28,948 bases of DNA, taken from positions 1-28,948 of IMG/VR virus record IMGVR_UViG_3300031952_000104. The stretch is one strand, 5' to 3'. Position numbers and translations under genes: made by a program. Source of the DNA: a virus. The notes under the pieces were generated by a model. It did not search any database. It was not told the origin of the DNA and worked only from the letters and a program-made list of their open reading frames with translations. Position 1 is the first letter of the stretch, and each line of letters opens with the position of its first letter. Of the stretch, positions 4,777-24,189 are shown piece by piece.

Positions 4777-5349
4777 GTTCTCTACGGTGTACTCAGTTAA
4801 ATCAATTTCGTACCCAGGATTTTTTTTAATCCGATCCTTGATCCATGAATCGTCGTACCAGATGATTCGGTTATTGGGATACGCGTAGAAATTGCCGTCA
4901 TCCATACGAAAGAAGTGCGCACATTTGTGCTCAGGTGTTTCACTGAAATTAGTATTGAGAGTTGATTTAGATTCCCACGACCAGTCAAGAGTGAACATGT
5001 AGACACCACCCTTCTTCTCGCCTTTGTAATTAATCAGTTCTGCGCGTAAGTTTGCAAGGCGAGACCTAACTTGTACATCGATATACGGAGAGAAACAATC
5101 CCACCACATGCACTCATTAAGTTCAGGCTTAGGGGCATCTGGCTTCCAGCAGAGAGCATGGATTGGACGCCTTGTCCAGTTCACACCATTTTCAAGGAAC
5201 ACCTCAAACAATGGGACGTGTTTCTCTAGGGAGGCCACGGAGTGTACATCACATAACGTCGCATCACCATGCCCCTGCTTGTGGTTGTATAGGAATTCGT
5301 TTCGGATGTAGCAAGTAAATGTAGGTAGGTTGTGATTCAAGTAACTCAT
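4717..5349 (-). CDS. conserved hypothetical phage protein
   Basis: A 210-residue protein with many aromatic residues and several motifs that look strongly conserved: RNEFLYNHKQGHGDATLCDVHS, ENGVNWTRRPIHALCWKPDA, SETPEHKCAHFFRMDDGNF and YPNNRIIWYDDSW. I recall very similar wording in hypothetical proteins of cyanophages and other aquatic phages, but know of no function. The scattered His, Cys and Asp residues could form a metal site, which is inference only. The tRNA-like sequence 5379-5449 lies just upstream on the same strand and could share its transcript. Confidence 0.72.
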   Translation of the reverse strand: MSYLNHNLPTFTCYIRNEFLYNHKQGHGDATLCDVHSVASLEKHVPLFEVFLENGVNWTRRPIHALCWKPDAPKPELNECMWWDCFSPYIDVQVRSRLANLRAELINYKGEKKGGVYMFTLDWSWESKSTLNTNFSETPEHKCAHFFRMDDGNFYAYPNNRIIWYDDSWIKDRIKKNPGYEIDLTEYTVENSRMIETSNHFLYETTPVNN

Positions 5350-6286: not shown

Positions 6287-6289
6287 AAA

Positions 6290-6361
6290 TCAACTGTACT
6301 GGAATCGAACCAGCTATCTAACTCCCTTGTCGGGGTGTCCTTACCAATGGACTACCAGTTG
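6290..6361 (-). tRNA. tRNA or tRNA-like sequence, anticodon arm irregular
   Basis: The minus strand shows an acceptor stem CAACTGG/ACAGTTG (6 of 7 pairs), TA, a perfect D arm (GTCC, ATTGGTAA, GGAC), and a T arm GCTGG TTCGATT CCAGT (last pair G-U), with a total of 72 bases including the discriminator A. This is strongly tRNA. The anticodon region CCCCGACAAGGGAG gives only a 3-bp stem and lacks the usual U33, so the identity is unclear (GAC, Val, is one reading). It lies 3 bases after the interrupted kinase gene on the opposite strand. CCA is not encoded. Confidence 0.55.
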
Positions 6362-6483
6362 AGCGACCCACAGATTTGAACATTAGTAGCGCGAGGCTTG
6401 CCAAGAGGCTTAGTGGGTGTTGCTGTATGTTGCCAAGTTGCAAAACCTGGCTGGCTTCAGGGCTTTACATACTAAAACATCAT
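6362..6483. other. intergenic stretch without a gene
   Basis: No supported gene lies between the tRNA-like sequence and the terminator. The + strand contains ACCCAC and GTGGGT about 40 bases apart and a GATTTGAAC block (minus GTTCAAATC, the T-arm consensus), which may be a relic of a further tRNA, but no cloverleaf could be formed. Confidence 0.3.
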
Positions 6484-7410: not shown

Positions 7411-7584
7411 CTATTTTTTCTTGGCAGCAGCTTCTTTTTTCTTAGCAATCATCTCTTTAAACTTGTCACGTGCTGCAGTTTGCTTAGCTGATGCACCACC
7501 TTTTCCTTTAGGGGGAACTGGCTTGCCTTTAGGCGGTACGGCTTTGCCTTTGGCAACGGGCGGTTTCTTGGCAGGCATGATCAT
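7411..7584 (-). CDS. small Lys/Pro/Ala-rich basic protein
   Basis: This minus-strand frame gives 57 residues starting MIMPAKKPPVAKGKAVPPKG and ending in EAAAKKK. The N-terminal half is a Pro/Lys/Gly repeat (VPPKGK occurs twice) that resembles histone H1-type or nucleoid-binding tails; the second half is helical and Lys-rich. The second Met (codon 3) is an alternative start. It is the last gene of three neighbouring Lys-rich genes. DNA or RNA binding, or binding to packaged DNA, is inferred from charge only. Confidence 0.6.
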   Translation of the reverse strand: MIMPAKKPPVAKGKAVPPKGKPVPPKGKGGASAKQTAARDKFKEMIAKKKEAAAKKK

Positions 7585-7610
7585 TACTGGATTGTCTTCT
7601 TTATTCTAGA

Positions 7611-7811
7611 TTACTTCTTCTTAGGAGTTCTAGCTTTCTTACTAGCTTTCTTTGCTGCTTCTGTATTAGGTACAAACTGTTTACCTTGTTTGCTACCGGC
7701 TTTTTTCTTTGCGTCAGTCTTGGCGCGTTCCTCTTTGGACAGGGAAGCCCAAGCCTTCTCAGGTAAGTAGCGTTTAGTGCCTCCAGGTTGAACGGCTTTG
7801 TCGGCTGGCAT
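7611..7811 (-). CDS. basic protein, C-terminal part of split DUF5872-type protein
   Basis: A 66-residue basic protein containing KRYLPEKAWASLSKEE, then KKKAGSKQGKQFVPNTEAA and a Lys-rich tail. In the bacterial and viral DUF5872-type proteins I recall, this RYLP...AW..LS and GKQFV.NT.AA block follows directly after the WSARKSQ...GGGY block that is encoded here by the adjacent upstream gene. The two frames meet at TAATG with a 1-base overlap, so the single protein is split here, with likely termination-reinitiation. Function unknown; a nucleic-acid-binding role is inferred from the charge. Confidence 0.68.
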   Translation of the reverse strand: MPADKAVQPGGTKRYLPEKAWASLSKEERAKTDAKKKAGSKQGKQFVPNTEAAKKASKKARTPKKK

Positions 7812-10305: not shown

Positions 10306-11157
10306 ATGGCGGCGACTGCAACTACAGAAGATCCGCTTTACGTACAAATCAAACAACATCCTGATTTGTTGGCGGAACTTAATGCTCAGCCTGCCAGGGT
10401 AACGATCAATGGTAAAAGGCACTACAATACTCCGTTTTATACGGGGCCAGTACCGTCAGTAACCACCATAATTTCTGAGACTGCATCAGAGGCCAACAAA
10501 AAAAAATTGGAGATGTGGGCAAAGAATAATCCGGGGGTGAAGGAGGCTGCTGCTGAGCGCGGCACTTGTATTCACTCTTGTATGGAGCACTATCTCAAGA
10601 AGGAAGAGTTTGAGGTGCCCGAAGAGTATTCCGAATTTTGGGGTGGTATGCCCCAGATGTTGGACTTGTTTGAGGAAGTGATCTGGGCTGAGACACCACT
10701 ACAAGAGAAGCATCAATTTGCTTTGTCTTCTGATGGTGTAGGCAGAGTGTGGGGCTGGGATAAGGAAGACAGGGGTTGGTGTGGATCTCCTGACATTATT
10801 GGTGTGGCAAGTGGCAAACTTACGCTCGCAGATTTGAAGACCTCTGTCAAACCTTACTCTCGCTACTGGCCTAAGAACTTGGAGAAAGGTTCGCCTGAAT
10901 GGCGGAACTTACTTGCAGGCAACATGAAATTTAATAAGACGTGTCTCCAGCTTGGTGCGTACGATCTAGGTATCGAGCAGAGCTTAGGTATGACAGTCCA
11001 GCAGGCAGCCATCCTTGTATCGACGCCGGAACGCACTCAACTCTTTAAGATCACCAGGAATCACCTTAATATTATGAGGGAGAAATGGTTGAAAGTAGTA
11101 GAGGAGTACTACAGCCAGATTGAGCGCTGCGGTATGTACGACGCTGATTTGGTATAA
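10306..11157 (+). CDS. PD-(D/E)XK exonuclease (Cas4/RecB-like)
   Basis: A 283-residue protein with the ordered motifs of RecB/Cas4-type nucleases: ERGTCIHSCMEHYL (His90), GSPDIIGVASG (Asp163), LADLKTS (Asp176-x-Lys178), and CLQLGAYDLG. His, Asp and D-x-K form the Mg-dependent nuclease centre and the Gln/Tyr motif follows it. Phage enzymes of this type resect DNA ends for recombination or degrade host DNA. No four-Cys iron-sulphur set was seen, which separates it from Cas4 itself. It opens the + strand replication block that leads to the primase-helicase. Confidence 0.82.
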   Translation: MAATATTEDPLYVQIKQHPDLLAELNAQPARVTINGKRHYNTPFYTGPVPSVTTIISETASEANKKKLEMWAKNNPGVKEAAAERGTCIHSCMEHYLKKEEFEVPEEYSEFWGGMPQMLDLFEEVIWAETPLQEKHQFALSSDGVGRVWGWDKEDRGWCGSPDIIGVASGKLTLADLKTSVKPYSRYWPKNLEKGSPEWRNLLAGNMKFNKTCLQLGAYDLGIEQSLGMTVQQAAILVSTPERTQLFKITRNHLNIMREKWLKVVEEYYSQIERCGMYDADLV

Positions 11158-11268
11158 AAATATCAACAGGAAATGAGACTAATGAGACTTGCTAATCTCA
11201 AGGAAATAAACCTTGTTGGAGTGGTTTACCAGGCGTAGGATAAGAAGACAAGAAAAACAAAAACCTCG
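11158..11268 (+). other. intergenic leader with TGAGAC repeats
   Basis: The 111 bases before the 61-residue gene contain two adjacent ATGAGACT units (11173-11188) and a partly pairing CTCA at about 11196. A 21-codon frame starts at 11173 with AGGA just before it and ends at 11238; it could be a leader peptide but has no other support. The TGAGAC/GTCTCA word recurs in the repeat region after 15842. Confidence 0.3.
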
Positions 11269-11454
11269 ATGGAGATCTCGGTCTCGGTCGGAGAGTGGAT
11301 CCAGGCACTGTCCTGCCGCATGTCTAATGCGGTAGATGGTGACTGTTTTTTACTCCCTACCCACATGCACTTACATGCTTTTGAAACCCTAAAAGATCAA
11401 GAGCAATTTGCTGGTAAAAAGTTTAGAGTAAAGTTAGCTTCCGGTAATCACTAG
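11269..11454 (+). CDS. hypothetical small protein upstream of primase
   Basis: A 61-residue protein beginning MEISVSVGEWIQALSCRMSN. Its stop is two bases before the primase-helicase ATG, so the two are almost certainly cotranslated. It contains LPTHMHLHAFETL, a His-rich stretch, and a basic end (GKKFRVKLASGNH). No family was recognised. Position suggests a role in replication. Confidence 0.55.
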   Translation: MEISVSVGEWIQALSCRMSNAVDGDCFLLPTHMHLHAFETLKDQEQFAGKKFRVKLASGNH

Positions 11455-11456
11455 AA

Positions 11457-14117
11457 ATGACAAGCAAAAATTCAATGGTTTTGCTGCCAGGGCAGATAAG
11501 GCTTGATTACCTTTCGATTGACTGGCCTCTCACTCCTTTGGGAGCACACAAAAATCCATATGTACAGGGCTGGCAAAACAAACCGCACACCCCACAAGAA
11601 ATTGAAATTGAGTTGGGTGAGGGCCAGTGTAAAGCAGTTGGCTTGATTAGTGGACCAGCCTTTAACAAACCCTATGGCTACGTATGGGTTGATGTCGATG
11701 GTGCAAGCGTATATCCGTTAGTCGAAAAGATTTCGGGGCAATCATTTAGTGAGGCCTTGCCACCAACATTGACAATTTGTAGTGGTAAGGAGGGCCGCGA
11801 ACGTAAGTTATATAAACTTCCTAAAGACACATGGAAGGTGTTTGTCAGGAACAAATACGTCTGGTATGCCGATGGTGATAAGGAAAAATTAGAAATTTTA
11901 TGGGGTAAGCACCAGGGTGTCTTGATGGGGTCTCACCCTGAGACTGACGGTTATTTCACGGCACCCGACCAGGGATATGAGTGGGTAAACAAATTACCTA
12001 CGTTGCCTAGTTGGATTTTGTGTGGCATTACTGAGAAAAACGAACGGCAAGGGAAACCCAATACTGATATCGCTCGTGTTGTTGGCCCAGGATTTGCGTT
12101 GAATACCCGTATCCCAGTGGAACGGGATATGAAGATTGCACGGGAAGCAATGTGGGCCATGCCACCGGAAGCAACTGATGACTATGACATCTGGATCATG
12201 GTTGGTCAGTCGCTTCATGCATTGGATGAAACAATGCTTGACGAGTGGGATGAATGGTCCAGGCAGTCGGACAAGTATCGGGAAGGTGAATGTTTAAAGC
12301 GTTGGCGTTCCTTTACTAAGGGCGGTGGGCGCAGCATGGGATCTTTGATTCATATGGCGCAGCAAAATGGTTGGCAGCCACCAAGTGAGCACCAAGGTAT
12401 GAATGTCGATGATGACATGCTTGAGCATGTATCCAAACAACTAGATCAAATCGCAGAGGAATTTGAAGTGCCTATTACTGAACACGAACGCACCACGGTA
12501 AACAAGAAGCCGATCAAGCGGAAGACTACTGTTAAGCAGTCGGGGGAAGGAGGTTCCGATAAGGAAGATAACAAGAAGAACAGGAACAAAGATAACGACT
12601 CTTCTGATGTTATTACTGGGGTTCTTTTACAAACGTACAAAGGTAACCTGCGCTATAGCCGGATGCACAACCAGTTCTTTATGTATGGAGCTAAGCATCC
12701 AGGGCTTTGGTCTTCGTTGGGAGAGTTAGATATGAAGGGACGCATACGTGAAGAACTAGAAGCAATCAAAATAACTTTTCTGCCTAATGGCTACACAATC
12801 CATACAATTAACGATGTTTTTGCGCAGTTAAAAATCACGTTAATGTTTGAGGATTGGCACGAGGGATCTGACTACTTGTTGTTTTCCAATGGAATCTTGG
12901 ATGTTCAAGGACGTACTCTGTTGCCTTTTGATAGGGAAATGTATATGACACAACGCTTTCCTTATGAGTACAATCCTGCCGCTGAATGTGAAGAAATTGT
13001 TAAATGGCTAAAGCAGACACAGGATGGTGACTGGGGTAGGGTCCAGGTGTTGAGAGCTTGGTTGAGGGCTGTACTGCTGGGTTGTTCTGATATTCAGAAG
13101 TTTGTAGAGATTGTTGGCCCTGGTAAATCAGGTAAGTCAACCTATGCAAACCTGGCTCATGCTTTGGTTGGTGATGAGAATGCAACCATCTCAAGTCTGG
13201 AGCACCTTGAAAAGAATAGGTTTGAGACCGCCAACCTGTATAAAAAGAAGCTACTGCTGTTTAATGATGTTGAGCGGTATGGCGGTTCGGTATCAGTGTT
13301 GAAGGCGTTGACGGGTGGTGACCTTTTGCGTAATGAACAGAAGTTTCAAACGGATGCACAAAAGCCTTTTAAATTTGGTGGCCTTGTGATGATTACGGCT
13401 AACGAGCCGATCCAAACTACAGATCCAACGTCGGGACTTGCTAGGCGTCGGTTAACAATTCCTTTTAACAACCCATTTAAAGGTACGGCTGCTCAGCAGC
13501 ATGTCCTTATTGATATGGATGGGAAGGGTAATGCATACGGTAAGTTTGCCCCTCTGTTACCAGGGCTGGTCAACTGGGTCTTGGATTTGTCTCATGTTGA
13601 GATGAAAGAACTGTTGATGGAGACTGCAAAGACAGTACCTTTCTACGTTGGGTATCAGACAGAGCAGGTGCTTAAATCCAACCAACTACTGGATTGGATG
13701 CATCACTCAGTTGTGTTTGAGTTCAATGTGGCAAGTGCAGTGGGCTTTGCAAAGCCTGCACCACAAGGAAGCTCAGGTGTTTATGTCAACCATGACAAGT
13801 GGTTATATGCTTCGTACTGTGAGTTTTGTAAATATTCAAATACAAATATCTTGGGTCGTAGTCGATTTGAAAGCCTGCTGATGGACGTATGTGTGCATCA
13901 GTTGGGATTAAATGTCTATCGACTTAAGAACTCAAGGGGTATGCGAGTTGTCAACTTAATGATTCGCAGCAATGACCCACGCATGAAAGAGTACCCCTCC
14001 ATTGTTGAGCTGGGATTAAACAAAGCTAAATACCGAGACTTTTATGGTCCCAAGTCACAGATAGAATATGCAAAAGGTGATGCGACAATGGAAGATAATA
14101 TCCAATTAAACGAATGA
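11457..14117 (+). CDS. primase-helicase, D5-like SF3 type
   Basis: An 886-residue replication protein. Residues about 10-190 resemble a prim-pol-type primase region (GLISGPAFNKPYGYVWVDVD, with an acidic DVD). Residues about 220-305 match a PriCT_2-type domain (AMWAMPPEATDDYDIWIMVG). A charged linker follows (about 335-385). The C-terminal half is a D5-type SF3 helicase: Walker A GPGKSGKST at 554-562, Walker B LLLFNDVE, motif C LVMITANEP, and SGLARRRLTIPF with the arginine finger. It would unwind and prime phage DNA. Its stop overlaps the speD start (ATGA). Only one such gene is visible; no DNA polymerase lies in the window. Confidence 0.9.
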   Translation: MTSKNSMVLLPGQIRLDYLSIDWPLTPLGAHKNPYVQGWQNKPHTPQEIEIELGEGQCKAVGLISGPAFNKPYGYVWVDVDGASVYPLVEKISGQSFSEALPPTLTICSGKEGRERKLYKLPKDTWKVFVRNKYVWYADGDKEKLEILWGKHQGVLMGSHPETDGYFTAPDQGYEWVNKLPTLPSWILCGITEKNERQGKPNTDIARVVGPGFALNTRIPVERDMKIAREAMWAMPPEATDDYDIWIMVGQSLHALDETMLDEWDEWSRQSDKYREGECLKRWRSFTKGGGRSMGSLIHMAQQNGWQPPSEHQGMNVDDDMLEHVSKQLDQIAEEFEVPITEHERTTVNKKPIKRKTTVKQSGEGGSDKEDNKKNRNKDNDSSDVITGVLLQTYKGNLRYSRMHNQFFMYGAKHPGLWSSLGELDMKGRIREELEAIKITFLPNGYTIHTINDVFAQLKITLMFEDWHEGSDYLLFSNGILDVQGRTLLPFDREMYMTQRFPYEYNPAAECEEIVKWLKQTQDGDWGRVQVLRAWLRAVLLGCSDIQKFVEIVGPGKSGKSTYANLAHALVGDENATISSLEHLEKNRFETANLYKKKLLLFNDVERYGGSVSVLKALTGGDLLRNEQKFQTDAQKPFKFGGLVMITANEPIQTTDPTSGLARRRLTIPFNNPFKGTAAQQHVLIDMDGKGNAYGKFAPLLPGLVNWVLDLSHVEMKELLMETAKTVPFYVGYQTEQVLKSNQLLDWMHHSVVFEFNVASAVGFAKPAPQGSSGVYVNHDKWLYASYCEFCKYSNTNILGRSRFESLLMDVCVHQLGLNVYRLKNSRGMRVVNLMIRSNDPRMKEYPSIVELGLNKAKYRDFYGPKSQIEYAKGDATMEDNIQLNE

Positions 14118-14476
14118 GCAAAGGCAGGCACTTGATCCTGGATCTCTATGATTGTGATCCAGGTATCCTTGATGATTACGATGAGTTAACGCGCCTGCTT
14201 GAAGCAGCTTTAAATATGGCGGGGGCCACTATCCTTCGCATCTTTGGAGAAAAGTTTGAGCCGCAAGGCGTAACTATATTGGCGTTGCTTGCTGAGTCGC
14301 ATGCGTCTATCCATGCGTGGCCTGAGTTGTGCTATGCGGCAGTTGATTTATATACATGTGGTGCTGCAACCGCAACCGATAAGGCTGCGGAATTTTTAAT
14401 TTATAAACTTGGCAGCAAGCACCATGTGCAGCAAGATCTTGTTCGAGATTCTGTAAAAGAAAAAACCGCTGTATAA
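14114..14476 (+). CDS. speD: S-adenosylmethionine decarboxylase proenzyme
   Basis: A 120-residue protein of normal length for the bacterial/archaeal class. LLAESHASIHAWPE gives the self-cleavage site between Glu61 and Ser62 (Ser62 becomes the pyruvoyl group), His67 and Cys82 (in YTCGAA) match the known processing and proton-donor residues. The enzyme makes decarboxylated SAM, the aminopropyl donor for spermidine. speD is a recurrent cyanophage auxiliary metabolic gene. It overlaps the primase-helicase stop by 4 bases. All residues needed for activity appear to be present. Confidence 0.93.
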   Translation: MSKGRHLILDLYDCDPGILDDYDELTRLLEAALNMAGATILRIFGEKFEPQGVTILALLAESHASIHAWPELCYAAVDLYTCGAATATDKAAEFLIYKLGSKHHVQQDLVRDSVKEKTAV

Positions 14477-14479
14477 ATA
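14472..14479 (+). promoter_or_regulatory. TATAAATA box, T4-like late promoter candidate
   Basis: An exact TATAAATA overlaps the speD stop codon, 29 bases before the glycosyltransferase ATG. This is the T4-type late promoter octamer in the right place and direction. Only three such boxes were noticed in the window, so a T4-like late transcription system is suggested but not proven. Confidence 0.4.
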
Positions 14480-14488
14480 GTTATACTA

Positions 14489-14507
14489 AGTTCAGTTTCT
14501 CTGAACT
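14489..14507 (+). promoter_or_regulatory. hairpin directly before the glycosyltransferase start
   Basis: AGTTCAG and CTGAACT form a perfect 7-bp stem with the loop TTTCT, one base before the ATG at 14509. It occupies the place where a ribosome binding site would be, and none is otherwise visible. It may regulate translation or mark the 5' end of the late message. Confidence 0.4.
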
Positions 14508-14508
14508 A

Positions 14509-15777
14509 ATGACTAACAAACCTAAGCTCTTGTGGATTGCAGACTTTGCTGCAATGACGGGATTTGGACGGGTAAGTGGTGCAATCTTGCCACGTATTAA
14601 AGATAAATATGACATCACGGTGTTGGCATGCAACTGGCATGGGGACCCAACGCCTGAGCAGAAAGATTTCAGGATGTTCCCAGCGGCTAATCGTTTTCAA
14701 CAAGCACCGTTTGGCGAAGATCGCATCCGTGAGATTGTTGAGCGTGAACAACCGGACATTATTTTTACGTTGAATGATCCTTGGATTGCTTCGGAGCAGT
14801 ACCGACGCATTCAAGATTTGCATCAACAGAAAAAATTTAAGTTCTGTGGTTACATGACCATGGATTCTTACGACTGGCTAGGTGGTATCGATCCACATAT
14901 CAGTCAGTGGGACTCGCTTATTACTTTCACGGAATTTGGTGCGTACGAATTCCTTAAAGCAGGCATCAACAAACCTATTACTGTTATTCCCCATGGCTTG
15001 GATAGTTCTGTCTTCTATCCCAAGGACAAAAAGGAGGCACGTAAAGAGTTGGGGCTATCAGAAGACATCTTTATTTGTTTTAATGGGCAACGTAACCAGC
15101 CGCGTAAGCGAATGGATATTACGATTGCTGCCTTTGCATTGTTTGCGGTGGGTAGGCCGGATACTCAGTTGTACATGCATTGCGGGCTTAAAGATCAGGG
15201 TTGGGATCTGATGCCGTTGTTCGCACGTGAAATGAAGCGTAATGGACTGGATCCAAACCATCGCATCATCATGACAGCTAATACGCCACAGCCTCCGAAC
15301 GTGTCAGTGGAGATGCTGAATACCATCTACAACGTTGCTGACGTTGGTATCAATACAACCAAAGGAGGGGGCTGGGAGCTTGTCAACTTTGAGCATGCCG
15401 CCTGCTGTGTGGCGCAGGTGGTACCAAACCATACGAGTACCAAGGAGATCTTTGAGGGCCACGGAGAGCTGATTCGTTGTGATCATATCGATGTTGACCC
15501 AAACTATGGACGAGATATGCCGTGTCCTTCGGTTGAGCACCTCGCTGAAATTTTGGCGAATTTGTATGAGGATCGGGAGCACCTCGATCAAGTTGCTCAG
15601 TCTTGCTACGACCGAGTGACGGAACCCCAGTTTGAGTGGGACAACATTGCTGATCAATTTGATGTGGAGTTCCAGGAGGTGTTGCGGGCTGAACCTTTGG
15701 TGAGTGCAGAGTCTGTCTCATCGGAGAAAAAGGGGAAGTGTAAGAAGAAGAGGAAGAAAGTATTGGTTGGTGACTGA
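14509..15777 (+). CDS. GT4-like glycosyltransferase
   Basis: A 422-residue protein with a GT-B layout. The N-terminal half has LLWIADFAAMTGFGRVSGAI, a typical acceptor-side Rossmann start. The C-terminal half has VIPHGLDSSVFYPKDKKEAR, GQRNQPRKRMD and INTTKGGGWELVNFEHAACC, where the Glu residues near the end match the nucleotide-sugar binding EX7E-type motif of family GT4. The last 20 residues are Lys-rich and probably disordered. Phage glycosyltransferases modify DNA, virion proteins or host surface glycans; the target cannot be told. It has its own putative late promoter and a strong terminator after it. Confidence 0.82.
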   Translation: MTNKPKLLWIADFAAMTGFGRVSGAILPRIKDKYDITVLACNWHGDPTPEQKDFRMFPAANRFQQAPFGEDRIREIVEREQPDIIFTLNDPWIASEQYRRIQDLHQQKKFKFCGYMTMDSYDWLGGIDPHISQWDSLITFTEFGAYEFLKAGINKPITVIPHGLDSSVFYPKDKKEARKELGLSEDIFICFNGQRNQPRKRMDITIAAFALFAVGRPDTQLYMHCGLKDQGWDLMPLFAREMKRNGLDPNHRIIMTANTPQPPNVSVEMLNTIYNVADVGINTTKGGGWELVNFEHAACCVAQVVPNHTSTKEIFEGHGELIRCDHIDVDPNYGRDMPCPSVEHLAEILANLYEDREHLDQVAQSCYDRVTEPQFEWDNIADQFDVEFQEVLRAEPLVSAESVSSEKKGKCKKKRKKVLVGD

Positions 15778-15802
15778 AAACCAAAGCTATGACTGAGTTT
15801 TT

Positions 15803-15827
15803 ACCCTGGCGAAAGCTGGGGTTTTTT
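15803..15827 (+). terminator. strong rho-independent terminator
   Basis: ACCCTGGC, GAAA, GCTGGGGT form an 8-bp stem with a GNRA tetraloop (two G-T pairs), followed directly by a run of T. It lies 25 bases after the glycosyltransferase stop and closes the + strand replication/metabolism block. Confidence 0.85.
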
Positions 15828-15841
15828 GCTGGAAAGCTAGT

Positions 15842-16159
15842 CTTAAAGTGAGACAGGTACAGAGATTGCTGCGAATAGGCCTAATTTCTCTTTAAGTAAT
15901 GGAACAGCCTTATCCCAGATTTATATTTAGGGATGTGTAAGATTTTTGAGACACATGTGAGTCTCATGAGATTCATCTTACACATCCACTTCTTACACAT
16001 CGGATGAGGCTGTTCAATTAGTACTAGAGTAATAGGGGGGTTTAAGTCCATACTCTGCACTTAAAAAGGCAATTCTCATACCCTGTCTCAAATGAGAAAC
16101 ATAAGACACCTTTTGTACCAAGGCTTTTAGCGAAATCTTACACATCCACTTTTTTCTCT
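15842..16159. repeat. repeat-rich intergenic region with nested inverted repeats
   Basis: No convincing gene is present. An outer inverted repeat (AACAGCCT at 15903-15910, AGGCTGTT at 16007-16014) encloses a perfect 13-bp inverted repeat (GGATGTGTAAGAT at 15931-15943, ATCTTACACATCC at 15975-15987), which encloses TGAGAC/GTCTCA (15947-15952, 15961-15966). CTTACACATC recurs at 15992-16001. ATCTTACACATCCACTT (15975-15991) is repeated exactly at 16135-16151, eight bases before the next gene. A further GTCTCAAATGAGAAAC hairpin lies at about 16084. It could be an operator cluster, a replication origin with iterons, or a structured RNA. Confidence 0.7.
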
Positions 16160-16837
16160 ATGGCAAACGTAATGCGTGGTTACAAACCAGTAAAAGAACA
16201 AGTCAACTTTCGGTACTTACGCTCCACGGATGCCAAGGCACTGGAAAGGTGGGGTTACTACCGGGGCTTTCCCTGTGCTTTTGGTCATACCATTCGCGAT
16301 TCAACCAATCACTGGTGTTATGAGTGCGTATTAAAAATCAAAAGTAATTTCTGTGGGTTCGATCTAAACTATTTACACCTGGACTACAAGGCTTCAATGC
16401 ACCGGTTGTGGAAGCGTGTTCAGATCGGTAATTGGGATGAGTGCTGGGACATCTCGGACCCTGGTACCAAGAGGCTCAAGCGTGTCTGGATGCCTTCTCA
16501 CCGCTCCTTTACGGACAATACACTCGGTAATAACATTACCGTTCAGAAGGCCATCTATGCTTGCACCTGGGGGGATGTAGGTAGTCTTAGGGTAAGTCGC
16601 ACGTGCAACAATCCAAGATGCTGCAACCCACTTCACATGGTTAGTAGCTGGAATCGCAAGACACCACCTAAAGTTGTCTCACCTTTCTGTACTGAGTACC
16701 AGGTTGAGAAACTAATGTTGCTTGCTGACCTGGAACGTAAAGGCATGGATGCCAATAAAGTGATCCAACGCGAGTTCAGGGTTAGCATCACTGCTCCTAA
16801 AGATGCTCAAATTGACCCCAAGTACAATGAAGAGTAA
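16160..16837 (+). CDS. zinc-loop HNH-like protein
   Basis: A 225-residue protein. The N-terminal part holds GFPCAFGHTIRDS and WCYECVLKI, a zinc-ribbon-like pair. The middle holds RSFTDNTLGNNITVQKAIYA and VSRTCNNPRCCNPLHMV, the Cys-rich loop ending in NPxH seen in phage HNH/zinc-binding-loop endonucleases of the homing type. The end is helical with ADLERKGMDANKVIQREF, perhaps a DNA-contacting helix. Metal-dependent DNA cleavage is inferred from the family; some of these proteins may be transcription regulators instead. It follows the repeat region, whose last repeat copy ends eight bases before the ATG. Confidence 0.7.
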   Translation: MANVMRGYKPVKEQVNFRYLRSTDAKALERWGYYRGFPCAFGHTIRDSTNHWCYECVLKIKSNFCGFDLNYLHLDYKASMHRLWKRVQIGNWDECWDISDPGTKRLKRVWMPSHRSFTDNTLGNNITVQKAIYACTWGDVGSLRVSRTCNNPRCCNPLHMVSSWNRKTPPKVVSPFCTEYQVEKLMLLADLERKGMDANKVIQREFRVSITAPKDAQIDPKYNEE

Positions 16838-16857
16838 CCCCAGATACTGGCAGTGAA

Positions 16858-17796
16858 GTGGCAAGAAGCCAGGAAATCCAACGTCAACGTACACAAAATA
16901 ATCCTCTTGTTTTAGGCAGCTTTGATACGACCACGCTTAAATACTTGAAGGGAAGCCTGGGACCGCTGAATCAACTTGTAGGTAAAGCTGACACTAGCCA
17001 ACAATCAAACGGCGGATTTGGCGGCGGGGCTTACAATCATTGGTTCCAAATTAATTTAGAGGCTAGTGCCTGGATAATTGTTGTTAAATCTGGGCCAAAA
17101 CCAAATTATATTCAGACTTCTGTTTATGATTTAGATAAAAAACCTATTGAAGGCAGGGGAATATTTCAAGGAGATTCTATTATTACTGATACTGGCACTG
17201 CTCTTTTTTACCCCTATTTAAATACGGTAATGGGGGCCCAGTCTGATCTTTATAATACATTTGATCCGGCACGTTTAGATCGTGGCGACGAAAGATATTA
17301 TCCCTTGGAAGCCGGTAGATACTTGCTTTGCGTGTCAACAACCAGGAATGAAATTATAAGTTATGAAGTTGGACTAATAATTGAATTTCCAATAGATCAA
17401 ATATTTTTTGCTTTAGAAGATGAAGGCGAGATTTCTTTGCTTTTAAAAGAAACAGCGATTGATTTTTCACGTACTATTAATATTATTTCTCCAATTACTG
17501 TTGATACAATTATTAACACAGATAGCAATCGACCCAACGGTTTTACCGAAGATATAAGTCAAATAAATGCAGGTGTTACTGTGACTATTTTATTTGGATC
17601 GGAATGGTTTATTGGTGCCCCCGTGCCCTCGAGTCAAGAAAATGAATTCACTGTTATCTTAGAGCCCGGCAGCAATCTGTATTATGATACCATTCATGAT
17701 CATTCCCTTGAAGAATGGCAAAGCAGCTGGGAATCTACTCATCAAGATACGGATAAATTCCCAGAAGTATTTATCCCTTTAACTAATAGGTTGTAA
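16858..17796 (+). CDS. putative virion protein
   Basis: A 312-residue protein from a GTG start 20 bases after the previous stop. It begins with a basic helical tail (MARSQEIQRQRTQNNPLVLG), then GGFGGGAYNHWFQINLEASA, and continues as repeated beta strands with many Asp, Thr and Ile (for example IFQGDSIITDTGTALFYPYL). The pattern is that of bacterial pre-peptidase C-terminal-like or jelly-roll domains and of phage structural proteins. No catalytic motif was seen. Assignment to the virion is by composition. Confidence 0.6.
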   Translation: MARSQEIQRQRTQNNPLVLGSFDTTTLKYLKGSLGPLNQLVGKADTSQQSNGGFGGGAYNHWFQINLEASAWIIVVKSGPKPNYIQTSVYDLDKKPIEGRGIFQGDSIITDTGTALFYPYLNTVMGAQSDLYNTFDPARLDRGDERYYPLEAGRYLLCVSTTRNEIISYEVGLIIEFPIDQIFFALEDEGEISLLLKETAIDFSRTINIISPITVDTIINTDSNRPNGFTEDISQINAGVTVTILFGSEWFIGAPVPSSQENEFTVILEPGSNLYYDTIHDHSLEEWQSSWESTHQDTDKFPEVFIPLTNRL

Positions 17797-17861
17797 TATA
17801 TTCTTTGTAAATCGTACATATAGGGATCTAAAATGTTTATAGGATTTTAAATAGTTTGCTC

Positions 17862-19653: not shown

Positions 19654-22071
19654 TCAGGCTATTCTATAGGTGATAAAGGTATTGGTCGTTGTCTTGCGAG
19701 TGAGAAAACGACCGGAGGAAGCGGGCCCTGTTACCATGTTGCCGAATACGGTGTGATTGGTGTTCGCAACAACTGTGATATTAAAAGTAACGGATGCGCG
19801 GTTGATTACGCTCCATTCAAAGGATTGGCCGGTTTGCAGGTCTTGGAATGCTGCATCTAAGTTGGTGCCTGTTGGCAGGGTGTAGTTAATGCTTGCAGTG
19901 GGCGTACCAGAGCGGATGCCGTCGATGATAGAAGCGGCAGTAAGCGTAACCGCCGTGGCGCTGTCTGTGGCGACAGTGTTTTTAGTAGATGCGCCATTAG
20001 TGCGGATGTCACCTGCGAAGTAGCTAGGGGCGGTGCCAGCGGCGTAGAAGTTCCAATCGTTTGCGGAGGAAGCGAGGTTGCTGAAGAAGCCGTAGTTGTT
20101 TGTAGCTTGATCTAAGGAACTGAATGCCTGGAATCCATACTGGTCAGTGATTGTCGAGCCTGCACCTTTTGTTGCTCCTGAAGCTGCGTAGTGGGATAAA
20201 TCTGCGCAAGTAAAAGCTGCGGCTGCTGTGGTCAATAGCGTTCGATAACCGTATGCAGTGGCGGTTACGTCACTTTGGACAGTTGTGTTTGTGAAGTTGC
20301 CGTATGCAGTGGTTGCGCCTGTAATTAACCCTTGGTTATACAGAGTGACAACAATAGAGCCACTGCCCCCAATCGCGACATTCCCGTTGCTGCGGATTCG
20401 CATCCGCTCAGCGTTGTTAACCCTAAACAGCAAAGCGTCATCTGTATTGCTGTATATAATCCCTCCAACGTCGCCGTCTGCAGTGTCACCAAAGAAGAGG
20501 CTGCAATCTGACGCAGTGCCACCAGCCAGGGTGATCGCTGTGCCGCTGGTAGTTGTGCCGCCGCCTGCTGTAACGAGAACAGCCGTGTTTGCATCAGCGC
20601 CGGTTATGACTTGGTCAGTGCCAAGCCTTGCCACTTCTAGCCTGTGGGTGGGGAGATTAGTGCCTATGCCAAGGCCGGTGCTATTGAGACGCGCTTCTTC
20701 AGCGTTTGCAATGTTCCAGCGGTGAGCTGTGGCGCCGCTTGCATCAGTGTCTATTGTGTAATCCGTAGAAACAGAAACATCAGCATTGCTTCTAGTTCGT
20801 ATTGAAAATGCGTTGCTATCCCTAAGCAGTATAGTTCTGTTATGTGTGGCAGTGCCGTCAGATTCTTCTAGCTTGATAGTAGGACTAGTAGAATCCACCA
20901 GAATGTTGCTGGTGGTGGTAATACTTCCGCTTGTGACAATATTTCCGCTTGTAATTGCCGTGCCACTTACCTTGCCGGCAGTAGAGATGGTGTCGAGCTT
21001 GGTGTCAACAATTCCAGCACCGGCGTTTATATCAGCATTAAGAATTGTGCCGTCAAGAATCATCGTGCTCGTAACAGAGCCCGTGTCGCCTGTCGTGACC
21101 ACGGTGCCGGTCACATCCGGCAAAGTGATCGTCTTGTCTGACGACACCGAGGCCGGAGCCTGCACCGCAATGAAGTTGGTGCCGTTAGCAGTGGTTTCAC
21201 GGAAACGCACTTGCTGCTGGTTATCCATTACCAGCGCACCAGTAAAAACACCAGACACAAAGTTAGCTGTTACACCTGTAACAGTAACTCCCGTAAGACT
21301 TGTAAAGTTTCCGGTTACTGAGTTTACAGTGGTTCCATTTACAGTGGTTCCGGTAATTGTTGTACCAGTAAGACTTGTAAATGTTCCAGTGGTTGAACTG
21401 ATAGTTGTTCCACTAATAGTTGTTCCGGTAATTGTTGTACCAGTAAGGGAAACAAAAGTACCGCTAGTAAAACTTGCTTGGGTACCCGTTACTGTTAATC
21501 CAGATACTTGAGTTGTAAAAACACCAGACACAAAGTTAGCTGTTACACCTGTAACAGTAACTCCCGTAAGACTTGTAAAGTTTCCGGTTACTGAGTTTAC
21601 AGTGGTTCCATTTACAGTGGTTCCGGTAATTGTTGTACCAGTAAGACTTGTAAATGTTCCAGTGGTTGAACTGATAGTTGTTCCACTAATAGTTGTTCCG
21701 GTAATTGTTGTACCAGTAAGGGAAACAAAAGTACCGCTAGTGAATTGGGCCGTAGTGCCAGTGATGGTCGCGCCTGATACTTGAGTTGTAAAAACACCAG
21801 ACACAAAGTTAGCTGTTGTTCCTGTTGTAGTTGTTCCCGTAAGAGACGTAAATGTGCCGCTGACACCTTGAACTGTGGTTCCCTGAACGGTATTTCCCGT
21901 AACAGTAGCCCCAGAGACTGTAAAGTTTCCGATCAAAGTGGCTCCGGAGATTACACCACTTACCGCAACACCGCTAGTAATAGCTCTATAGATACCAGAT
22001 GCAGTTACATTCTGATCAGCGCCGCCGTTATCAAAAGTAATATTATCAACTTTTACGGTACCGTACGGCAT
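19654..22071 (-). CDS. tail fibre protein with TGT-type repeats
   Basis: An 805-residue protein. It starts MPYGTVKVDNITFDNGGADQ, a cyanophage virion-protein type N-terminus. Residues about 50-270 are degenerate repeats of 20-28 residues with TGTT, VSG and FTSLTG units, a likely beta-helix or beta-spiral shaft. The C-terminal half (about 270-805) has KTITLPDVTGTVVTTGD, SNGNVAIGGSG-like and GLGIGTNLPTHRLEV segments common in phage fibres. No S74 autocleavage chaperone was recognised. A 227-bp exact duplication lies inside the shaft. It would mediate attachment to the host surface. It is paralogous in shaft composition to the next fibre upstream. Confidence 0.82.
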   Translation of the reverse strand: MPYGTVKVDNITFDNGGADQNVTASGIYRAITSGVAVSGVISGATLIGNFTVSGATVTGNTVQGTTVQGVSGTFTSLTGTTTTGTTANFVSGVFTTQVSGATITGTTAQFTSGTFVSLTGTTITGTTISGTTISSTTGTFTSLTGTTITGTTVNGTTVNSVTGNFTSLTGVTVTGVTANFVSGVFTTQVSGLTVTGTQASFTSGTFVSLTGTTITGTTISGTTISSTTGTFTSLTGTTITGTTVNGTTVNSVTGNFTSLTGVTVTGVTANFVSGVFTGALVMDNQQQVRFRETTANGTNFIAVQAPASVSSDKTITLPDVTGTVVTTGDTGSVTSTMILDGTILNADINAGAGIVDTKLDTISTAGKVSGTAITSGNIVTSGSITTTSNILVDSTSPTIKLEESDGTATHNRTILLRDSNAFSIRTRSNADVSVSTDYTIDTDASGATAHRWNIANAEEARLNSTGLGIGTNLPTHRLEVARLGTDQVITGADANTAVLVTAGGGTTTSGTAITLAGGTASDCSLFFGDTADGDVGGIIYSNTDDALLFRVNNAERMRIRSNGNVAIGGSGSIVVTLYNQGLITGATTAYGNFTNTTVQSDVTATAYGYRTLLTTAAAAFTCADLSHYAASGATKGAGSTITDQYGFQAFSSLDQATNNYGFFSNLASSANDWNFYAAGTAPSYFAGDIRTNGASTKNTVATDSATAVTLTAASIIDGIRSGTPTASINYTLPTGTNLDAAFQDLQTGQSFEWSVINRASVTFNITVVANTNHTVFGNMVTGPASSGRFLTRKTTTNTFITYRIA
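21242..21741. repeat. exact 227-bp duplication within fibre gene
   Basis: Positions 21242-21468 and 21515-21741 are identical by eye over 227 bases, with a period of 273 bases (91 codons). A third partial copy of the left edge begins near 21786. The unit is in frame, so each copy lengthens the fibre shaft by about 91 residues. Confidence 0.88.
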
Positions 22072-22107
22072 GTCTTCACTGCTTTTTTCTTATTCTAACT
22101 TAACTAA

Positions 22108-24189
22108 TTAAGGAAGGATAATTAATGGTCCTTGGATTATAAAACCAGAAGTACCACCGGACACAACTCCTGAACATACTATAGCGGCAGTCGCACCAGA
22201 AGGAGTAGTAAGTGTGATTGTTGCACCTGTAATTGAAGTAAATAAACCACGGGTACCCGTTACGGTATCTCCACTTACACTTGTCGTAAAGGTACCAGAA
22301 ACACCAGTTACATTTGAAAAAGATCCCGTATTACCTGTTACTGTAGACCCACTAACTCTAGTCGTAAAGGTACCGGAGACTCCCGTTATATTTGAAAAGG
22401 AACCTGTGTCGCCAGTAATAGTTCCCCCGCTGACCCTAGTAGTAAAAGTACCTGATACACCAGTTAAGTTTGCAGCATTTACGGTATTACCTGTTAAAGC
22501 TGTCCCCGAAACTAATGTTGTAAATACGCCCGAAACAAAATTGGCAGTAGTACCAGTGGTGGTTGTGCCTGTAAGAGATGTAAAAGTACCTGTGACAAAA
22601 CTCGCGGTAACACCCGTGGTCGTCGTGCCTGTAAGGGAAATAAAAGTACCTGTTGTAAATTGAGCAGTCGTTCCAGTTACTGTGCTTCCACTTATTGTTC
22701 CTGTAACAGTTAAACCAGAAGAAATAATTGCGTTGCCTAGTGTTTCCGTATTTCCTGAGAAAGTTAAATTACCACCAAATGTTTGGTTTACGGCGAATAA
22801 ATTTTCAAAAACTCCGCTGAGGCCTTGTATTGTATTGCCTGTTATTGTGGCGCCGCTTAAGTTTTGAAATACACCTGACGTAAAACTAGCCGTAGTACCT
22901 GTTGTAGTTATTCCTGTTAAAGAAGTAAATACTCCAGTTATATATGTTGCAGTTATGCCTGTAGTTGTAGTTCCTGTTAATGAAGTAAAAGTACCTGTTG
23001 TGGCACTAACCGTAGTACCAGTAAATGTAGTTCCAGTTAAGGAGCTAAACGTTCCCGTTGTTCCTTGAACGGTTAATCCAGATACTGTTGTAGTTCCAAC
23101 TACTGTTGCACCAGTTACAGATTGAAAGTTACCGGTGGTTGCGTTAACAGTAGTGCCAGTTATTGTGGCACCAGATAGCGAAGTAGTGAAAGTACCAGTT
23201 ACACCGGTAATACTTTGAACGTTACCTGTTGTGAAGTTAGCGGTTGTACCCGTTACCGTAGTACCACTTAGATTTACAAACTGACCAGTAATGCCTGTTA
23301 CCGTTGTCCCGGTTAAAGACGTAAAGCTTCCTGTTGTTGACGTAACTGTTACTGCAGTAATTGTTGTGCCGGTAACGGTGGTTCCTGTGAAGGATGTAAA
23401 AACACCAGTAGCAAATCTGGCGGTTGTACCTGTTACCGTAGTGCCGCTTAGGGTTCCCGTTACATTAACACCAGCCGCAAAAATAGCTGCACCGCTTACT
23501 CCCAGTGTACCTGTAACTGTTAAGTTTCCGCTTATGTTTTGCGTTGTCGCATTAACAACTTGAAAAGTACCAGTGGTGAAGTTTGCGTTTGTTCCAGTGA
23601 TGGTTGCGCCTGAAACGCGGTCAGTAAAGGTGCCGCTTACACCAGTAATATTGGAACCCTGGATGGTATCTCCAGTTACTGTTGTACCACTTACCTTGAC
23701 AAAATTACCGGAGGTACCATTTATGATGTTTCCTGTTACCGTTGCACCAGACACAACCGTCGTGAAAATACCACTAGCGTAAGTAGCTGTTGTACCGGTT
23801 AACTGTGTTACTCTTCCTGAGATTGCATCGATTGTTGTTGCTGCAACCAGTGTGCCAGTTAACGTGACACCACTCAGTGTCCCATTGAGCCTTAAATCAT
23901 TCTGAACAAAAACGCCACTAAAAGTAGCAAGATCAGAACCTGTAATACTTGTGAAGTTACTGGCACCTGAAACCGTCAGGCTTCCGTTGATTACTATGTT
24001 TCCACTAAAAGTATCACCGGAAATACTGGGATAATATATGTCTAAATAATTTCTAAACTCTGTAAACGTAATTTTTTTATTACGTAAAACAGGGTCAACT
24101 TCAAATACGTGAACAAGTGTCAATAGATCCTGGTCAACGATATCCGCTGCAGGAATACTAGGAAATTCAGAAATCCTTCTATTAGCCAC
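22108..24189 (-). CDS. second tail fibre protein with TGT-type repeats
   Basis: A 693-residue protein from a GTG start. The N-terminus (MANRRISEFPSIPAADIVDQ, then DPVLRNKKITFTEFRNYLDI) is the attachment-type domain of many cyanophage virion proteins. From about residue 70 to the end it is a long run of Thr/Gly/Ser repeats (FTSLTGTTTTGTTANF and variants), with occasional breaks such as NLFAVNQTFGGNLTF. The C-terminus ends in a hydrophobic GFIIQGPLIILP. Like the next gene it is expected to form a trimeric beta shaft. It may be the shaft joining a distal fibre, or an independent fibre. Confidence 0.8.
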   Translation of the reverse strand: MANRRISEFPSIPAADIVDQDLLTLVHVFEVDPVLRNKKITFTEFRNYLDIYYPSISGDTFSGNIVINGSLTVSGASNFTSITGSDLATFSGVFVQNDLRLNGTLSGVTLTGTLVAATTIDAISGRVTQLTGTTATYASGIFTTVVSGATVTGNIINGTSGNFVKVSGTTVTGDTIQGSNITGVSGTFTDRVSGATITGTNANFTTGTFQVVNATTQNISGNLTVTGTLGVSGAAIFAAGVNVTGTLSGTTVTGTTARFATGVFTSFTGTTVTGTTITAVTVTSTTGSFTSLTGTTVTGITGQFVNLSGTTVTGTTANFTTGNVQSITGVTGTFTTSLSGATITGTTVNATTGNFQSVTGATVVGTTTVSGLTVQGTTGTFSSLTGTTFTGTTVSATTGTFTSLTGTTTTGITATYITGVFTSLTGITTTGTTASFTSGVFQNLSGATITGNTIQGLSGVFENLFAVNQTFGGNLTFSGNTETLGNAIISSGLTVTGTISGSTVTGTTAQFTTGTFISLTGTTTTGVTASFVTGTFTSLTGTTTTGTTANFVSGVFTTLVSGTALTGNTVNAANLTGVSGTFTTRVSGGTITGDTGSFSNITGVSGTFTTRVSGSTVTGNTGSFSNVTGVSGTFTTSVSGDTVTGTRGLFTSITGATITLTTPSGATAAIVCSGVVSGGTSGFIIQGPLIILP

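Follow-up and report, generated by a model that had tools for sequence, protein, structure and literature searches.

What is the function of the nested inverted repeats and repeated short words that lie between a glycosyltransferase (GT) gene and the gene beginning at 16160 in this viral DNA? The window, meaning the whole stretch analysed (a record of 28,948 bases), is part of an S-EIV1-like cyanophage. Over 15400–17800 it matches Synechococcus phage S-EIV1 (KJ410740.1) at 76%, and apart from KJ410740.1 no other record of that collection matched this interval. The initial annotation had described nested repeats here, and direct reading of the sequence bears out each of them. A 13-bp perfect inverted repeat (GGATGTGTAAGAT at 15931–15943, ATCTTACACATCC at 15975–15987) encloses a 6-bp repeat (TGAGAC at 15947–15952, GTCTCA at 15961–15966) and is enclosed by an 8-bp repeat (GAACAGCC at 15902–15909, GGCTGTTC at 16008–16015) that belongs to a longer imperfect arm. 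The word CTTACACATC occurs four times, three on the plus strand and one on the minus strand, and is absent from the rest of the window. The exact 17-mer ATCTTACACATCCACTT is found at 15975–15991 and 16135–16151, ending 8 bases before the ATG at 16160. TGAGAC/GTCTCA occurs at 15849, 15947, 15961 and 16085, and also at 11174 and 11183, ahead of the gene at 11269. The element follows a terminator (stem-loop 15803–15822 plus a T run). Overlooked until now was that the entire interval 15849–16090 forms one long imperfect palindrome. The features of the locus are as follows, with the strand given where one was assigned.

15803–15827, plus strand: intrinsic terminator of the GT gene, stem-loop plus T run, forming the upstream border of the element; a homologous one is present in S-EIV1
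15840–15854: GTCTTA-N3-TGAGAC dyad, whose TGAGAC is the outermost matched word of the palindrome; the spacer-3 dyad is enriched in nine genomes
15849–16090: whole imperfect palindrome, proposed replication origin (repeat scoring, folding)
15897–15915: outer arm, 5′ side, containing GAACAGCC (sequence; compensatory changes)
15919–15929: A/T-rich TTTATATTTA between outer and inner arms, candidate unwinding site; TATA-like stretches lie at the same place in relatives
15931–15943, minus strand: word copy 1, inner arm, 5′ side, GGATGTGTAAGAT (sequence; compensatory changes)
15947–15966: centre with the TGAGAC/GTCTCA inverted repeat (sequence); absent from S-EIV1
15975–15987, plus strand: word copy 2, inner arm, 3′ side, ATCTTACACATCC (sequence; compensatory changes)
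15992–16001, plus strand: word copy 3, CTTACACATC (sequence)
16002–16020: outer arm, 3′ side, containing GGCTGTTC (sequence; compensatory changes)
16085–16098: GTCTCA-N2-TGAGAA dyad, outermost 3′ match of the palindrome (sequence)
16135–16151, plus strand: word copy 4, which includes the exact 17-base repeat and stops 8 bases short of gene B; retained in L004, L057 and S-EIV1
16160–16837, plus strand: gene B, HNH/His-Me-like predicted DNA-binding protein with Arg where the catalytic His is expected (alignment, model)
11457–14117, plus strand: primase-helicase (PrimPol/SF3) gene (domain search, P4-alpha-like stretch, C-terminal model)

The palindrome at 15849–16090 has a nested inverted-repeat score of 23.2, whereas none of 200 dinucleotide shuffles exceeds 14.2, and ranks first of 477 sliding windows of the record (runner-up 15.1). 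The 10-mer CTTACACATC is present in four copies, compared with a maximum of three in 60 shuffles, and the element folds as single-strand DNA with z = -5.4. We compared it with 52 IMG/VR loci (labelled L0xx) recruited by a search with the GT, and with long genome records (labelled G0xx). In contigs of sufficient length the gene order exonuclease, primase-helicase, GT, element, optional gene A, gene B, next gene is kept, the only exceptions being two distant loci (L054 and L055). At least one extra gene is inserted between GT and element in some loci, and the element always lies directly upstream of gene A or gene B.

Lack of conservation of the repeats in related phages had been named as evidence against the feature; we found the architecture kept across relatives while the letters differ. 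The letters of the element vary from phage to phage, and both arms change together. All 200 shuffles were beaten by 41 of 46 element regions, many of which are near-duplicates; in the five others the shuffle counts were 11/200 (L028), 54/200 (L032), 164/200 (L046), 2/200 (L036) and 27/200 (L036b). The failure to find a significant nested palindrome in L046, L032 and L028 counts against an origin. The homologous stretch of S-EIV1 tops that whole genome (score 21.8, next 14.5, 1314 windows), the element is the strongest inverted repeat in all nine long related genomes scanned, and 26 of 28 elements fold as single-strand DNA at z < -2. The recurrent anatomy is a terminator, often a GTCTCA/TGAGAC dyad, an outer arm, an A/T-rich TATA stretch, an inner arm (in relatives often with a core like ACACTTT or ACATTTT), a centre, the mirror image of these parts, and then gene A or B.

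Among four close relatives both sides had changed in 4 of 38 pairs, one pair passing through G-C, C-G and T-A; the six cells with both sides changed were matched by 1 of 500 shuffles, which for only four sequences is modest support. In L057 the two paired word copies are changed and copies 3 and 4 are not, and in S-EIV1 all four are changed; 14 of 30 elements have a word whose copy number exceeds that of every one of 60 shuffles. As far as sequence comparison can tell, both pairing and word recognition have support, and the constant feature in relatives is the long palindrome, of which the repeated words are the variable part. The close relatives L018 (7252–7536) and L028 (7279–7546) differ in that one has closely matching arms and the other a different 5′ arm. 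This suggests that one arm may be rewritten from the other, and such copying would explain the concerted change of the arms.

Paired changes suit RNA as well as DNA, and a transcribed leader or small RNA with a fold kept by such changes was one of three guesses made in the initial annotation. We now regard it as highly improbable: Rfam gave no match at the gathering threshold in the window, the element follows a terminator with no promoter-like site in the window's stretch, and its exchangeable partner, as set out below, is a DNA-replication protein. Promoter scans were at chance level throughout, and in L040 and L048 the genuine -35/-10 word pairs that follow the palindrome do not rise above shuffles. 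The guess of an iteron-type origin largely stands, with the palindrome as the constant and the words as the variable component; an operator remains as a rival, particularly for the separate GTCTCA-N3-TGAGAC dyads.

A natural experiment is provided by eight near-identical phages (L039–L045 and L048) that carry three unrelated element types. The GT is 93–99% identical in all 28 pairs, and the exonuclease 87–100% in 21 of the 28 (L039 being without an exonuclease). In the nine pairs that share an element type the primase is 95–100% identical, A 89–99% and B 91–100%; in the 19 pairs with different elements these values are 63–80%, 42–67% and 49–52%. The element, the C-terminal half of the primase-helicase and the HNH-like genes therefore switch together despite the conserved GT between them, and primase divergence is greatest beyond about residue 300. 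At the DNA level L041 and L040 are about 90% alike over the GT and little alike in the C-terminal half of the primase; no similarity was detected between them from the element until past gene B. The gene after B does not track element type in the eight phages. Across 43 pairs with GT at 88% or more, element similarity correlates with primase (rho 0.95) and not with GT (rho 0.04); as the pairs lack independence, their p-values should not be read literally. Taken over all pairs of the 38 loci, the association is far looser (primase 0.39, GT 0.19), since divergence prevents most elements from being aligned. If the GT were instead the mobile piece, primase and element would still form one unit, because these phages also have the exonuclease, the N-terminal part of the primase and the downstream DNA in common. 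A and B track the element no less closely than the primase does, so either of them could be what reads it.

The primase contains Prim-Pol, PriCT_2, D5_N and DUF5906 domains above cut-off, and residues 476–837 are 26.9% identical to P4 alpha. The last 200 residues were modelled with a mean pLDDT of 77.6, and structure comparison of the model ranked the P4 origin-binding domain (1ka8) first (Foldseek E 3.4e-3, probability 1.00; Z 9.1, rmsd 2.4, 89 residues aligned), followed by RFX and the C-terminus of African swine fever virus PrimPol (Z 7–7.7). A PDB profile search with the primase C-terminal alignment returned no match. The best match for the predicted domain is thus a P4-origin-binding-like winged helix. 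The phages that carry the element are freshwater cyanophages and it is probably their replication origin, since the sequence of this large and rapidly changing DNA stem-loop shifts in step with the primase-helicase in otherwise near-identical viruses. We consider it likely that the origin of S-EIV1-like cyanophages lies here and is recognised by the PrimPol-SF3 helicase, on the grounds of a helicase with an origin-binding-like domain, a stem-loop that changes with the primase, and the precedent of pRN1; initiation itself we infer.

That precedent is already in print. An intact stem-loop is required for replication of pRN1, its letters are little conserved and a displaced copy still works, and the same kind of stem-loop origin has been proposed for phage BIP-1 (PMC4234260). 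In pRN1 (ORF904) and in BIP-1/BPP-1, as here, a PrimPol is joined to an SF3-type helicase and a C-terminal winged helix, with a large stem-loop downstream in non-coding DNA whose structure is kept while its letters change, and PriCT_2 is common to BIP-1 and the present protein (PMC4234260). We found all of these in our phages: an AEP PrimPol, a helical/PriCT domain, an SF3-type helicase, a C-terminal winged helix, and a large downstream non-coding stem-loop with structure but not letters conserved. The present element differs in lying about 1.7 kb further on, separated from the replication gene by SpeD and GT, rather than directly after it as in pRN1. This counts against the origin, although pRN1 tolerates such a displacement; the element is also longer, contains repeated words and has HNH-derived A/B attached, and the co-segregation of element and protein is seen through natural swaps. 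Phage P4 resembles our system in the predicted winged-helix origin-binding fold of the putative initiator, in the sequence of the helicase part and in having repeated words at the site. It differs in its bacterial-type primase domain and iteron origin (PMC4234260), in place of which we find a PrimPol and a long palindrome. The PrimPol of phage NrS-1 recognises short ssDNA words (PMC8718748).

One genome contains a second copy of its own element (L092, 9729–9951, from the G008 record, the same phage as L027), 75% alike over 211 bp and with the same arms. In the record some 50 kb separate it from the first copy, and it lies near what, read by eye, is an apparent GIY-YIG-like endonuclease gene. 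Phage P4 has two cis sites per genome, ori and crr; here a clear second copy was found in one of nine genomes only, which is not that pattern. A second copy such as that in the L027 phage is expected for a trans-acting initiator.

The HNH-derived genes were examined by profile and by model. The gene B profile matches I-PpoI weakly (E 0.29), yet in register over the His-Cys box, with the CxNxxCxNPLH motif aligned; unlike I-PpoI, 27 of 28 proteins have Arg in the column of the catalytic His, so that by motif gene B appears nuclease-dead. The Pfam zinc-binding loop of homing endonucleases is matched by 10 of 28 B members at E up to 0.1. In a fold search gene B gave no Foldseek E below 0.001; in a second look at 50 chains its model matched NFI, Smad MH1 and I-PpoI at Z 3.6–5.1, low enough to reflect a common arrangement only. 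Homing endonucleases are regarded as the likely source of Smad MH1 domains, and MH1 and NFI are degraded relatives of I-PpoI. Of the 22 gene A members, 16 are HNH_3-like (E up to 0.1), 20 keep the His and all keep DNR. A and B form one open frame in L042 (7114–8145) and in L005, L032, L041 and L052, which suggests that the two proteins work together.

Because HNH-like genes adjoin the palindrome, the locus might be a homing or mobile cassette that inserts and replaces like with like, the palindrome being its target or end. Two phages, L044 (about 7418–7730) and L039 (about 4802–5110), keep an extra gene A with no palindrome before it, followed by an element, A and B of the L040 type, and this foreign neighbourhood would suit a mobile cassette; the extra gene is likely a remnant of cassette exchange. 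We nevertheless think a mobile cassette very unlikely. The element occupies one fixed position in the gene order, the catalytic His is missing from nearly all B proteins, and mobility of A/B leaves the linked change of the primase unexplained.

When a single mismatch is allowed, the 725,409 bases of nine genomes contain 15 GTCTCA-N3-TGAGAC dyads, 8 of the 15 coming from two genomes, S-EIV1 and a near-twin of the window. At other spacers up to 12 there are at most 5 each, and a control word at spacer 3 gave none. The dyad looks like the target of a dimeric protein, and our guess is that the gene B protein could bind it. We rejected TGAGAC as a universal part of the element: it is missing from the elements of L030, L027 and L038, three of the nine long genomes, and is therefore treated as a separate dyad. 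The same dyad also lies inside the primase gene at 11930–11944 and, with one mismatch, at 13589–13603, and likewise in S-EIV1 and G001. Such dimer-like targets, together with the position of the element next to A or B in all loci, word copy 4 just ahead of gene B and the co-segregation of A and B, would fit an operator or enhancer bound by the HNH-derived proteins or the primase and controlling A/B, with co-segregation reflecting a regulatory circuit. We judge this unlikely: a palindrome of 240–300 bp is large for an operator, control of A/B alone leaves the primase C-terminal linkage across the conserved GT unexplained, the second element copy in the L027 genome adjoins other genes, and promoter-like sites are at chance level.

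The initial annotation had also pointed to GC skew. The GC3 skew of co-directional genes does fall at the element, from +0.18 (exonuclease), +0.13 (primase) and +0.065 (GT) to -0.115 (A), -0.166 (B, negative in 24 of 28) and -0.083 (next gene), but the change is only local and its sign is opposite to what the leading-strand rule usually gives. Skew was thus rejected as a direct origin test and is not used as support, the sign being contrary and the extremes of the long genomes lying off the element. Within the window about 6 kb of co-directional genes (10306–15777) have G raised over C, with near-zero values past the element, and most relatives are alike. A packaging (cos/pac) or partition site is a further reading that the palindromic repeats would allow. 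HNH genes are known to lie near cos sites in other phages, which favours packaging. We give this reading hardly any weight: the annotated terminase gene of S-EIV1 (54,080–56,620) is far from its element at 7.7–8.0 kb, and the scanned proteins included none recognisable as the product of a partition gene.

For a replication origin, the data support the architecture, its conservation without letters, the paired changes, the co-segregation and the P4-origin-binding-like domain. The origin would be an imperfect palindrome of about 240–300 bp with nested arms, short repeated words and an A/T-rich stretch. The PrimPol/SF3 helicase encoded at 11457 would bind it through the C-terminal winged-helix domain, assemble on the two mirrored halves and open the A/T-rich part or an extruded hairpin, after which the primase domain could lay the first primers for two forks, in directions that the model likewise presumes. 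Gene B, and A where present, may be co-inherited accessory or regulatory DNA-binding proteins, and word copy 4 could allow repression of gene B by a protein bound at the element. More tentatively, S-EIV1-like phages may possess exchangeable replication-specificity cassettes, in which the origin palindrome, the helicase/origin-binding half of the PrimPol and two HNH-derived proteins make up a co-adapted set that is exchanged whole within otherwise near-identical genomes, giving replicon types. Gene B would then be a homing endonuclease that has lost its catalytic His and been taken over as an origin factor that binds the palindrome, which would parallel NFI and Smad MH1 in a bacterial virus; GTCTCA-N3-TGAGAC is a possible target. 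In the literature searched, which did not extend to the original description of S-EIV1, we did not meet this family, the co-segregation evidence or a nuclease-dead HNH partner.

If correct, the origin is placed for a widespread, little-studied cyanophage lineage, with natural matched and mismatched initiator-origin pairs for studying how PrimPol-helicases choose a start site. It would also back the idea, put forward in 2014, that phages of the PrimPol type begin replication at a stem-loop, and suggest that replication specificity diversifies by cassette exchange, which could shape phage co-infection and competition. Elsewhere in the window, ARAGORN calls a tRNA-like gene on the minus strand (6289–6362) whose anticodon has two bases, and two long proteins encoded on the minus strand at 19654–24189 are rich in TGTT-like repeats and, to judge from their translation, are perhaps tail fibres.
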